From Sulfurimonas sp. HSL-1716 (GTDB taxonomy: Bacteria; Campylobacterota; Campylobacteria; Campylobacterales; Sulfurimonadaceae), in contig NZ_CP147918.1 in assembly GCF_039645975.1 (NCBI RefSeq), positions 1,860,001-1,924,000 of the forward strand: a DNA stretch of 64,000 bases, given 5' to 3'. Both the position numbers and the translations under genes were made by a program. Positions 9,606 through 41,423 of the stretch are shown in pieces; the stretch's first letter is position 1; every line of letters begins with the position of its first letter. A model generated the notes under the pieces. It was not told the DNA's origin, ran no database searches, and saw only the letters and a list, made by a program, of their open reading frames with translations.

Positions 9606-10712
9606 CTATTTGACGGTGAAGTATTTCTGTTTTAAGATCGTGAACTTTTTGGCGTCTTCATTTTTCTCAAGTCCGAGCTTGCCGAGTGCTTTGGGATTTA
9701 CAATATAAAATCCAAGCTCTGCTTCGATCGTGTCTTTGCTTTGCAGATGAGTTGTATATGCCACGGTCCTTTTTTCGTCTGCCTTTATCATAGTGTTCAT
9801 TAGAATTTTATCGGCTATCCACGGCATGGACGGTTTGCCGTCATGTCCTATCACTTTTAAAAACTTTTGACTTTTTAAAGCGGTCGTTTTACCGTTTCGT
9901 ATGAGGTTGACTCTAAGCTCTACGACTCTTAAAGGATGGGTTAAAAGATCATGCGGCGATCTGTTTTTTATACCAATGCTAAAGCCATTCTCGTTTTGTT
10001 CAAAGCTGAGTTCAACGTACTTAGACAGCATCTCCGAGTTATTTCTAGCACCGGCAAAACCGTGAAAAGCATGTGTTTCGCTGATCCTGATCGTAGTCGC
10101 AGTGCCTTTGATTTTTGGCATATGGCATGTAATACAGTTTTGTTTTTTACTGCTCGCGCCCTCTTTGTCCGTCTGACAGAGCGTGAATTGATGAGAATTT
10201 TGTTTATGAGAGTGGCATCCCATACATATCTCTCCCGTATAAAACTGCTTGTTTCTATAATCTATCTTATGGTACGGAGACCCTACCGTTCCTGTCTGCA
10301 ATCCGAAAAATGAAGTTTTTTCTTTATAGACCAACTTTTCGTTCTCTCTTCCCGCCTCTGCAGAATAGAACTGTTTTGGCTTGGTTTCGTAAATATTTTT
10401 ATCTGAGATCGGATGATGTTCTATATTTGTTATCGTATGGCAGCTCAAACATGTAAACGGTTCTTTCATATCCTCTTCGTTTTTAGCGTTTGGAGCATGA
10501 CATTTAGCACATTCATACTTACCCTTTGCATGAAGCGGATGTCTGTCCCAGAGTGCTTTATGTATCTTATCATCGTTGAAAGAAGCATGTTTATGTAAAG
10601 AACTTTGAAACTCCTCGACTATTGTCGGATGACATTTTTTACATGCCTGCGTCTCCGATTTTGCAAATAATACGGACGAAACGAGCATAATTAACAACAA
10701 TATTTTTTTCAT
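9606..10712 (-). CDS. Periplasmic pentahaem cytochrome c
   Basis: The ATG at 10712 has AAAGGA 8 nt upstream and begins a clean signal peptide, so it is preferred over the in-frame start at 10733; the product is 368 residues. Five CXXCH haem sites are visible (CKKCH, CAKCH, CLSCH, CMGCH, CITCH), all in the first ~200 residues, with extra histidines that could be distal ligands. The C-terminal ~160 residues have no haem site and look like a beta-rich domain. This is the layout of cytochrome c-554-like multihaem electron carriers or reductases; the substrate cannot be read. An FNR-type box lies near -41 of a plausible promoter, suggesting oxygen- or nitrogen-oxide-dependent expression. Confidence 0.85.
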   Translation of the reverse strand: MKKILLLIMLVSSVLFAKSETQACKKCHPTIVEEFQSSLHKHASFNDDKIHKALWDRHPLHAKGKYECAKCHAPNAKNEEDMKEPFTCLSCHTITNIEHHPISDKNIYETKPKQFYSAEAGRENEKLVYKEKTSFFGLQTGTVGSPYHKIDYRNKQFYTGEICMGCHSHKQNSHQFTLCQTDKEGASSKKQNCITCHMPKIKGTATTIRISETHAFHGFAGARNNSEMLSKYVELSFEQNENGFSIGIKNRSPHDLLTHPLRVVELRVNLIRNGKTTALKSQKFLKVIGHDGKPSMPWIADKILMNTMIKADEKRTVAYTTHLQSKDTIEAELGFYIVNPKALGKLGLEKNEDAKKFTILKQKYFTVK

Positions 10713-10744
10713 ATAAACAATCCTTTTAATCATTATAATCTAAA

Positions 10745-10785
10745 ATTTTAACAAGTACTGAAAACTACGCCTTGATTTATATCAA
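10745..10785 (-). promoter_or_regulatory. FNR/CRP-type box and -10 element before the pentahaem cytochrome
   Basis: TTGAT-TTAT-ATCAA at 10772-10785 is a perfect TTGAT-N4-ATCAA site. A TAAAAT -10 candidate lies at 10750-10745 on the minus strand, placing the box centre about 41 bases before the expected start site, the class II activator position. A second candidate -10 (TATAAT, 10737-10732) would put it near -53. Confidence 0.55.
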
Positions 10786-11538: not shown

Positions 11539-13461
11539 CTAACTGTTCAGCTTCTTGACTTCAGCAAGCATACTGTCCATCAATACGAACAGTTCAGAAC
11601 TTGCTTTTTCCATCTCTTGGAAATTATTTATGATCTCGTCTTTATGCACAAGGATGTTTTCTGCCGGATTATCAGCTTCTAAGAATTTCATATTTCCGTT
11701 AGCGTTTTTATGCACCGTAGAGTGAGGTGCAGGGAATTTCGCATATGAATTGGTATGGTCGAATCTCTCTTTGCCTTCTCCGTCATACCATTTACCAAGA
11801 CGGCATCCATGATGATCGACGACAGAGAGGACAGGTTTGGCAGTTATAATACTGTTGTATGCACGCGATTTATAAAGTATATGATCTATCTTGGCCAATA
11901 CGACAAATACGCTGTTTTCCATGCTGTATGACGATTTGACTATGCTTGAAGAGTTATCGCTGAGCTCGGTCAGCGTTTCTTCAAAATCATATATCTTATG
12001 AGTTGATTGTTCGACTATATTACTCATAGAATCGCTGCTTGCCTGTATTTCACTCATACCCTGCTGCAGCGTTTTGATCGAGATCGAAATCTCTCCCGTT
12101 GCTTTATGCGTACGTTCGGCAAGCTTTCTGACTTCATCCGCCACAACGGCAAAACCTCGTCCGTGCTCTCCCGCACGCGCTGCTTCTATCGCCGCATTGA
12201 GTGCAAGCAGGTTCGTCTGGTCTGCGATATCGGTAATGAGTTCTATGACCGAGGTGATACTTTCAGCCTGAGAAGCAAGTTCATCTATGGCATGATTGTT
12301 TATACCGACCTGCTCTTTCAAATCTTCAAGCTCTTTTACTATCGATTCGATATTTTGTTTAGAGTCCGTTGCCTGGGCTTCGGCGGATTTTGTAGCCTGT
12401 GTTACGACTTTTAAAGCTTCGATATTGGTAGCCAAATCCTGCTGGATTAACGTCATACTCTCGGTCACACCGATACTTAGAGTACTAAGCTGAGAGTTAA
12501 ATCCGTCTTGCTGTTTTTTAAACTCCTGCTCTTTCATAACATGTATACTGTTTTTAACGAGTTCGATACCTTTGACAAACTCGCCTTTCATCCCCTTTGC
12601 ATTTATCTCGTAGCTAAAATCGCCCGTAGAAGCTTTACTGATCGAGTTGTTTATCTGATGCACAAAGTTTTCGATCTGATCCAAAAGCGATGACAAAGCT
12701 ATTCCCATTACTCCAAACTCGGTAGATTCGTTTTTGCTGATATTGTCGTGTTTTAAATTACCTTCTGCAGTGTGCTTCATCACCTGCGTAAAACTGCTTA
12801 TTGCGTTAATGATGGATTTGATCAGGATTTGAGAGAAGATTAAGACCGTTATACCGATACCGATACCCGCGATCAATGCGATAAACTTGTATATAGAGGT
12901 GCGCGTCGACATATCCTCACTTGCTTTTTCAAGAGCCTGCGCTTTAAGTTCGACGACCTTTTTAAATTTTTCTCTGGACTCTTCGGCCGGCGGGGTCAAT
13001 GTCGTTTTGTAACGCTTATATATCTCACCCTCTTTATCTTCGCTTATCTGCTGGGGAGTCAAGGACTTCATCATTGTAAATGCGTTGTTTAAAAAGAACA
13101 TTGTAGATTTTTCCGCGTCGTTTATCAAAGAGAGTTCATTGTCATTTACAGCGGTTTCTTTTAGGTTTTTAAAGTTTTTGGATACGTTATCGATCTTTTG
13201 GGATATTTTTTGTATATCCGCGTCATGATTTCCGCCGAGCATAATATCCCTGTCCGTTCTGCTGACATAGTTCATATCTGCTTCGATGGAGAGCGTATAT
13301 ATTTCTCCTGCTACATATTTTTCTTTCAATCTTTGATATCTGGAGTCTATACTGTTTAAAATAAAAAAGGTAGATATGGATCCGAAAAATATTGATATGG
13401 CAACAAAAATCAAAAGATAATTCATCTTCTTATGGATACTCATGTTCTTAGAAAATTCCAT
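11539..13461 (-). CDS. Methyl-accepting chemotaxis protein with C-terminal CZB zinc domain
   Basis: The start has GGGGAG 7-8 nt upstream. The protein has 640 residues with TM1 at ~14-33, a periplasmic helical domain (~35-190) like the 4HB_MCP sensor, TM2 at ~192-215, HAMP (~216-270), and the signalling hairpin with the conserved tip [20 protein letters not shown]. It ends in a CZB domain (~550-635) with HHGCRLGKW and later His residues that bind zinc. Such receptors pass ligand signals to CheA/CheW; CZB domains are linked to oxidant (hypochlorite) or zinc sensing. The ligand of the periplasmic domain is unknown. A TATAAT -10 candidate lies at 13519-13514. A second CZB receptor is at 38077-40311. 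Confidence 0.92.
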
Positions 13462-38076: not shown

Positions 38077-40311
38077 TCAATGTTCACCCTGTACACGCAT
38101 CTGATCCATCACTTCAAAGAGCATATCGCTGGATTTTTCCATCTCTCTTAAGAGTTTTATAACGGTATCTTTATTTTCTCTTCTGGTATCTTTGCCTTGA
38201 ATGAACGTAAGAACTTTTTTTACGCTGTCATGAACCGCAGCGTGCGGAGAAGATAGCTGTTTAAAGGCATCCGTCTCTCCAAAACGTTCCAAACCGGCCT
38301 TTTGCTGCCATTTGCCCAAGCGGCACTCGGTGTGATCTTGATACTTTACCTCTTTGCTGTCTGCATCGATGATCGCATTGTAAGTATTGGATTTAAAGAT
38401 GATGTGATCTATTTTTGCCAGTACGATAAAAACTTGATTTTCGATGTTATCCACGACATCTGACATCGCCCTTGCATCTTTATCCAACTCCAGCATAGTC
38501 TCTTTGAAAAGCTCGACCGAAGAGGAGGATTCATGCGCGATCTGGGTCATATCGCGCGATTTTTCCATGATAGCTCCAGATTCCTGCTTCATCGTATTGA
38601 TCGAGATCGTGATCTCTTGAGTCGCTTTCTGCGTGCGTTCGGCAAGCTTTCTTACCTCATCGGCGACAACAGCGAAGCCTCTGCCATGTTCTCCTGCGCG
38701 CGCGGCTTCTATTGCGGCATTGAGTGCCAACAGGTTAGTCTGATCTGCGATATCTTTGATCAGATCTACAACGGACGTTATCTCATTGGTTTTGGAATCA
38801 AAACCCTCGATTGCAATGTTGTTTTCGTTGATATGTTCCACCAATGTTTCCAATTTGACCAAGATATCTTCGACGACTTGTATGCTTTGCGTCGATTGTT
38901 TACTGGTCTTTTTAGTTGTCTGCTGCACATCAACCAAATTATCGATAGTATTGGTGATCTCGCTTTGCATCAGGCTTAAACCGGCCCCCGTATCTCCAAC
39001 CGAACGCACTTCAGACGTAAAGTTGATGATCTGCTGCTTATTGTGAGACTCTTTCATAGCGCTGATACCACGGTTTACCATATCGATCGCTTTTGCAAAA
39101 TCACCGTCAAATCCCTCGTTGCTTAAATTAAAAGAGAAATCTCCTTTTGCCGCTTTTTCTACCGACTCATTAATGCGTTTTGTCATCTCGGCCACGATTT
39201 CAACCAGGGATTGCAGCAGTTTGGTTATATCTCCCATCTCGTCACGGCTTGTCTTTCTACGGTCGACAACTACGTTAAGATTGCCATGATTTACGTTTTC
39301 TATCAGATCTTTAAATCGTAAGATCGCACGTTTTATGGAAAATGCCACGCCTCTTGATACGATTATCAAGATAGCAAACGTAATAGACGAAGCAGCAATA
39401 ACGGAGATTAAAATAAAAAGTGCATTTTTAGCGTTACTCTCGGCGATTCCGATCGTTTCATCGGCCAGCCTGTCTTCCATCCATTTGAGCTTGTTGATCT
39501 TTGTCGTAATGGTCTTAAACCAAAAAGTCGGATCGATCCCAAAACCTTCCTCTTTGCTTAAAGCCAGCTCCCGCATACGCTTTACTTCAGCAAACGAGGG
39601 GTCCTGCTGCGCGATCTTGTAGTTTTTAAGAGCCGTAGAGGAAGCAGTGGTTTCAAATAGATTTAAAAATGCTTCCTGCTGCGAAAGAACCGACAAAAAT
39701 TTGGCGTAAGAGTTCCTGTCGAATTTATCTGCGCCAAACACGTTGGATAAAACGGCTCTTTCTATTCCTGCCCGCTCTTTTGCACTTATAAAAACCACAA
39801 AACTGTTCATCGCATTACGGGTGGTAAGCTCTTTTGGATTAGTGGAAAAAACCGCTATCGTATCGACGATCGATTTGTTCAAATTCGTATAATACGCTAC
39901 AAGCTCTTTTACTGTTATAGCCTGCTTTAGAACCTGTTTTCGTATGTTTGAGAGTTCGGAAAAATCTATCTTTTCCTGAGCATATTTTTTATACTCATTG
40001 CTGCTGTCGGCGAAATACTGTTTTAATATATCAAGTTTTTTGTCGGTGTCTTTTTTTTGGTTTGATAAGATATCCGCAAAACTGGCTCCCTTTGATCCGA
40101 CAAAGCCGGCACTGGCACCCCTCTCCTTTTGCAGCTCATGCAAAACGGCACTCATTTTTAGCGAGAGCGCCACTATCGACTGGGTATTTTTGGCATCGCG
40201 GTAATTGGTATAGCTGTCGTAAGAAAGTTTCATACCAAATAAAAAAATAGCGCCTATCGCCAGTGCGCCTACGACAAAGAGTTTGTTATGTATGGTTAAT
40301 CTTCGAAACAT
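38077..40311 (-). CDS. Methyl-accepting chemotaxis protein with NIT sensor and CZB domain
   Basis: The 744-residue receptor has TM1 (~12-30), a periplasmic helical NIT (nitrate/nitrite-sensing-type) domain (~45-290) marked by [11 protein letters not shown] at ~55-65, TM2 (~298-325), HAMP, the signalling hairpin [20 protein letters not shown], and a C-terminal CZB zinc domain with [12 protein letters not shown] domains in other proteins detect nitrate or nitrite, but the ligand here is inferred. The promoter has an FNR-type box centred ~41 bases before the expected start site, in keeping with a respiratory signal. Confidence 0.92.
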
Positions 40312-40353
40312 GATTATCCTTAATTAAAATTTAAAAAATATATATAGTTTCGG

Positions 40354-40395
40354 ATTATAATAAGAATCGAAATGGCTGGCATTGACCTAAATCAA
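40354..40395 (-). promoter_or_regulatory. FNR/CRP-type box and -10 element before the NIT chemoreceptor
   Basis: TTGAC-CTAA-ATCAA at 40382-40395 (one mismatch to TTGAT-N4-ATCAA, with flanking A and T extending the symmetry). A perfect TATAAT lies at 40359-40354 on the minus strand; the start expected near 40347 puts the box centre at about -41.5, class II activator geometry. Confidence 0.65.
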
Positions 40396-40499: not shown

Positions 40500-41423
40500 A
40501 TGAGGATCGCTCAAAATATAACCGAACTTATAGGAAACACTCCCTTAATAAAACTCTCAAAACTTTCAGATCAGACAGGAGCGACGATACTGGCAAAATG
40601 CGAATTTATGAATCCGACCAGTTCTGTAAAAGACCGCATAGGCTTCAATATGATAAAGACCGCCATGCAAAACGGCCTCATCGACAAAGACACGACAATC
40701 ATCGAACCGACAAGCGGAAACACGGGTATAGCTTTAGCTTCAATCTGTGCCGCACTTGATCTCAAGCTCATCCTTACGATGCCTGAATCCATGAGCTTAG
40801 AGAGACGCAAGCTTTTAAAAGCTCTCGGGGCAGAACTGGTCTTGACGGATGCCGCAGAGGGGATGAAAGGCGCCATCAACAAAGCCGATGAACTCAAAAG
40901 CAATATAGAAAACTCTCTTATCCTGCAGCAGTTCGCAAATCCTGCAAACCCGGAGGTCCATAAAAAAACGACGGCTTTGGAAATATTAAGAGATACCGAC
41001 GGAAATGTCGACGCTTTTATTGCGGCCGTCGGTACGGGAGGAACTCTGACGGGAACATCCAGCGTACTAAAACAGGAGATACCCGATATAAAGATCTTTG
41101 CCGTGGAACCGCGTGATTCCGCAGTCCTTTCAGGCGGACGGCCGGGACCGCATAAGATACAGGGTATCGGTGCGGGATTCGTACCTGATGTTTTGGATGT
41201 AACGATCTATAACGAAGTCATAAAGGTCAGCAACGAAGATGCTATCGAAACGGCAAAGATGCTCGCACGTACGGAGGGTCTTTTAGTCGGTATATCCGCG
41301 GGGGCGAACGTTTATGCGGCAATACAGGTGGCTTCAAAAAAAGAGTTTCAAGGCAAAACCATAGTAACCGTTTTGTGCGATACGGGTGAAAGATATCTGA
41401 GTACCTCTTTATTCGATGAATAA
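40500..41423 (+). CDS. cysK: Cysteine synthase (O-acetylserine sulfhydrylase)
   Basis: The 307-residue PLP enzyme has the lysine loop TSSVKDRIG (~39-47), TSGNTG (~69-74) and the phosphate loop GTGGTLTG. It makes cysteine from O-acetylserine and sulfide. AAGGAAAAAG precedes the ATG. It overlaps the next gene by 8 bp. CysK rather than CysM is chosen from overall similarity; the distinction is not certain. Confidence 0.92.

Follow-up and report, generated by a model that had tools for sequence, protein, structure and literature searches.

Upstream of a chemoreceptor gene of Sulfurimonas sp. HSL-1716 lies a palindrome resembling an FNR site, which raises the question of whether it is a working activator site and, if so, which gene it serves and which regulator reads it. 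We analysed the 64,000-nucleotide stretch that contains it (the window, to which positions refer unless marked as genome positions) together with the complete genome (2.26 Mb, one contig). The reading we favour, with a probability of about 0.78, is an Nss-dependent class II promoter by which the NIT chemoreceptor is co-produced with the denitrification enzymes.

The chemoreceptor and its promoter

The features of the receptor locus are as follows.
38077 to 40311, minus strand: chemoreceptor gene, 744 amino acids, domain order NIT-MCP-CZB
39457 to 40146, minus strand: NIT sensor domain, residues 56-285 (E 5e-51)
38434 to 38814, minus strand: MCP signalling domain (MCPsignal), residues 500-626
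38209 to 38406, minus strand: CZB zinc-binding domain, residues 636-701
40382 to 40395, minus strand (40395-40382 as read): Nss/Dnr/FNR-like palindromic box TTGATTTAGGTCAA, centre at -41.5
40354 to 40359, minus strand: perfect -10 element TATAAT, 22 bp 3' of the box

The initial annotation had placed a matching box at -41.5 before a NIT-domain chemoreceptor, and its coordinates and geometry are right: the 22-bp gap between TTGATTTAGGTCAA and TATAAT puts the centre of the box at -41.5, the geometry of class II promoters. At 17 bp spacing from TATAAT, the -35 hexamer is ATGCCA (4/6). After TATAAT comes a leader of about 36 nt, and AAGGA precedes the ATG at 40311. The box conforms to the Nss consensus (TTGA-N6-TCAA) and starts 48 nt (14+22+6+6) before the predicted start site, near 40347. 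In Nitrosophilus labii, the nap, nor, and nos genes have boxes of this consensus that begin 48-49 nt ahead of the start site (PMC11539149).

The receptor possesses both a NIT domain and an MCP signalling domain, the combination by which NIT chemoreceptors are recognized. Its NIT domain is flanked by two hydrophobic stretches and is therefore probably periplasmic. When compared with the NasR structure (PDB 4akk), this domain matched at an E value of 1.6e-5 only. Residues R64, R185, and R247 align with NasR arginines that we take to be its nitrate contact residues, and they are invariant in nine homologues, which is compatible with nitrate or nitrite as the putative ligand. It is nevertheless quite conceivable, at odds that we set clearly below even, that the Nss site is real and the receptor recognizes something else, for example another N-oxide or a redox-linked signal. 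The NIT domain of Pseudomonas aeruginosa PA4520 bound neither nitrate nor nitrite, and deletion of PA4520 left nitrate taxis intact (PMC6381276); the CZB domain may also add a zinc or redox input. The three aligned arginines argue against such a ligand.

Significance and conservation of the box

In the window, the exact box TTGAY-N4-ATCAA occurs at two places, 10772 and 40382 (both strands together give 3 matches). The second box precedes a cytochrome gene, as the annotation had stated.
10772 to 10785, minus strand: second box TTGATATAAATCAA, before the multihaem cytochrome gene
10745 to 10750: -10 element TAAAAT, 21 bp from the second box
9606 to 10733, minus strand: multihaem c-type cytochrome gene, predicted to belong to the same regulon as the receptor

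A second MCP-CZB chemoreceptor is encoded near this cytochrome (11539-13461, minus strand) and has no box of its own.

Since at least 3 exact matches were also obtained in 5 of 100 shuffles, the window alone is weak evidence, and a search of the window allowing one mismatch revealed no enrichment (20 observed versus 17.5 expected). Demanding a correctly spaced -10 element left just the sites at 10772 and 40382. The search was extended to the whole genome, as the annotation had recommended, with reversed patterns and simulated sequence as controls, and strong enrichment before respiratory genes was observed. The exact box is present at 12 sites and matches 20 times when both strands are counted (versus 6 for the reversed control), TTGA-N6-TCAA followed by TANNNT at 21-23 bp was found 30 times versus 7, and the strict box plus -10 element 20 times versus 1. 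In 59 related genomes, the last pattern was found 559 times versus 93.

The -10 part of an earlier promoter model had been selected by pattern, and a stricter model was therefore derived from eight promoters of denitrification genes in this genome, which were selected by gene function and did not include the receptor. With this model, whose training sites all contain TTGA-N6-TCAA, the receptor promoter scores 26.8, a value that neither 118 Mb of intergenic-like nor 118 Mb of genome-like simulated sequence reached at any position. By the first model, the receptor site is among the three strongest in approximately 244 kb of genome scanned. The receptor box is not a chance match. A fortuitous box before an ordinary constitutive promoter would agree with its poor preservation at homologous receptors, yet both the empty null sequence and the rank of the site in the genome make this improbable.

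The box is found directly upstream in one of about 24 campylobacterotal receptor homologues (L038, the same locus as L111), where it sits in an AT-repeat that renders the -10 element uninformative. All 79 loci together contain 2 strict hits, and the other is located at -268 with no -10 element. In one genome (G059), a box and TATAAT precede a 111-aa gene that itself precedes a NIT receptor, on which the box possibly acts through that gene. No exact box was detected at 20 other chemoreceptor loci (L042-L061), of which some extend only a short way upstream. In other families of the order, the box with 22-bp spacing recurs ahead of nap and nos genes. Its rarity at receptor homologues indicates that the promoter link is probably lineage-specific; such poor conservation makes the case less certain, although peripheral members of regulons often show it.

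On the plus strand, the box reads TTGACCTAAATCAA, and it lies in an intergenic region common to the receptor and a divergent gene for a PLP enzyme (cysteine-synthase-like) at 40500 (plus strand), which it could serve instead. This is very improbable, as no -10 element is present at 20-25 bp in that direction (best 3/6), the box scores 15.3 toward the PLP-enzyme gene versus 26.8 toward the receptor, and the nearest TAAAAT would put it near -55.5 rather than at -41.5 or -61.5.

The regulon, its regulators, and their putative sensors

Most of the strong sites lie ahead of nap, haem-d1, nor, nos, NnrS, or cytochrome genes. A box-to-(-10) spacing of 21-23 bp is found, among others, at the sites of the porin, the nssA-like gene, napA, sirohaem synthase, nirDL-like, nor, moaA, NnrS, cytochrome c, nosZ, and the nssC-like operon. 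The box sites are given below by genome position.
100305/100333: porin and nssA-like gene
102082: napA
110924: sirohaem synthase
115367: NirDL-like protein (nirDL-like)
118076: norCB-like operon, then cd1-type nitrite reductase
128400: moaA
130768: NnrS
132075: small cytochrome c
327767: standalone NIT protein opposite a pentahaem cytochrome
1253574: haem-copper oxidase-family enzyme, may be a NO reductase
1452026: MauG-like protein with a pentahaem cytochrome
1777674: clade II nosZ
1779877: nssC-like operon
1870745: multihaem cytochrome of the window
1900354: NIT chemoreceptor

The half-sites are of the TTGAT type at napA and most nir and nor sites, and of the TTGACC type at nosZ and the nssC-like operon; the receptor box is a hybrid with one half of each type. 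Because the two types are mixed across relatives, the type of box does not name the acting regulator.

Several of these loci deserve separate description. The standalone 283-aa NIT protein and the divergent pentahaem cytochrome (genome 326877-329091) have a single Nss-type box in common; this box is absent in 13 of 13 relatives, and the cytochrome is not kept beside homologues of the NIT protein. At genome 1253574-1255907, the box is followed by genes for a CuA-like subunit (196 aa) and a protein of the haem-copper oxidase family (557 aa); the latter matched no named oxidase family above the cut-off and is possibly an alternative NO reductase. At genome 1450794-1452067, a MauG/cytochrome c peroxidase-like protein is encoded together with a five-haem protein behind a box and TAAAAT, and this locus may be a new member of the regulon. 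A possible further site is present at purH (genome 672925). Two further boxes, one inside coding sequence (genome 243323) and one at the start of the trigger-factor gene (genome 2156379), were judged to be chance occurrences.

In the genome we found five proteins that contain a cyclic-nucleotide-type domain; one of these, of 625 aa, belongs to a different type. The remaining four are small Crp/Fnr proteins with 0-2 cysteines each, none in the N-terminal cysteine cluster of FNR. Their recognition helix carries ETLSR in three and ATLSR in one. Nss-like regulator genes adjoin nap, nor, and nos, and the small proteins resemble the Dnr-type regulators called Nss in Wolinella and Nitrosophilus; gene position suggests orthology to Wolinella succinogenes NssA, NssB, and NssC, which respond to nitrate, NO, and N2O (PMC6682613). 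The divergent neighbour of the fourth regulator (genome 1062013-1064442) is a 420-aa membrane protein for which Pfam gave no match, and TTGACGTTCGTCAA lies between the two. Control by oxygen-sensing FNR, whose classical site has the same sequence and -41.5 position, is scarcely credible, since no Crp/Fnr protein with an Fe-S cysteine cluster was found in the genome and, according to a review, Campylobacterota have no known FNR orthologue (PMC6682613). Of the annotated regulon joining respiration and taxis, respiration and one chemoreceptor stand, while the oxygen-sensing "FNR-type" label gives way to the Nss consensus (PMC11539149). The receptor promoter is most likely an N-oxide-responsive, not an oxygen-responsive, class II promoter.

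Computation gives the box with its spacing and statistical strength, the common regulon, and Nss-like regulators in the genome; binding and activation by one of the Nss proteins we infer. A dimer of this Dnr-like Crp/Fnr type, produced in the presence of nitrate, NO, or N2O, would bind TTGATTTAGGTCAA centred at -41.5 and recruit RNA polymerase to TATAAT. The NIT chemoreceptor would then be made along with the denitrification enzymes, and a cell equipped for N-oxide respiration would also bear a receptor of the nitrate/nitrite type. Taxis would thereby be tied to the denitrification programme in motile sulfur-oxidising denitrifiers that have no known FNR or NarP orthologue.

In two cases, the nssA-like gene beside nap and the nssC-like gene beside nos, the gene after the regulator encodes a kinase-less NarX/PilJ-like membrane protein.
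Genome 100381-102044: nssA-like gene and partner, beside nap
Genome 1777725-1779362: nssC-like gene and partner, beside nos

The partners (332 and 325 aa) contain no recognised output domain. By coordinates, the Nss gene and the partner are adjacent in about 20 of the 26 relatives that have a partner. All 14 nap-type partners (napA was seen in the locus for 7, and the neighbour was not seen for 7) keep the N-x-x-G-x-x-R-M of the nitrate P-box. It is missing from all 7 nos-type partners (for five of which the locus shows nosZ), where (N/H)-x-QK-x-x-x-QEI-x-KN stands instead. Judged by these motifs, the nap-type partner is a candidate nitrate sensor and the nos-type a candidate N2O sensor. We tentatively suggest, at slightly less than even odds, that an Nss protein and its kinase-less partner form an undescribed two-part system, in which the P-box partner senses nitrate, the P-box-less nos-linked paralogue may sense N2O, and nitrate sets the level of the NIT receptor via the regulon. 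This combination was not found in the open literature; the original Wolinella Nss paper lay outside the search, and an earlier description is possible. If the suggestion is true, one receptor would read nitrate for gene expression and so determine how much of another, the NIT-type receptor for swimming, is made. The conserved Nss/PilJ-like pairs provide concrete candidate sensors for nitrate and N2O.

Comparison with known systems

The Nss regulon of W. succinogenes (NssA/B/C) and N. labii shares with the present one the TTGA-N6-TCAA box, its distance to the start site, regulators that adjoin nap, nor, and nos, and the lack of FNR; it differs in that a chemoreceptor target was not found in the publications consulted. 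McpN, the nitrate chemoreceptor of P. aeruginosa, likewise ties a chemoreceptor to nitrate, but through a PilJ rather than a NIT domain, and its transcript falls with nitrate independently of NarX (PMC6381276), whereas the receptor described here is predicted to be induced by N-oxides. NasR of Klebsiella oxytoca (NIT-ANTAR) has the NIT domain and the aligned arginines, but it is an antiterminator and not a chemoreceptor. In P. aeruginosa, aer is controlled by ANR, an instance of Crp/Fnr control of a taxis receptor as proposed here, although ANR is an oxygen-sensing regulator and the aer product is a PAS receptor.
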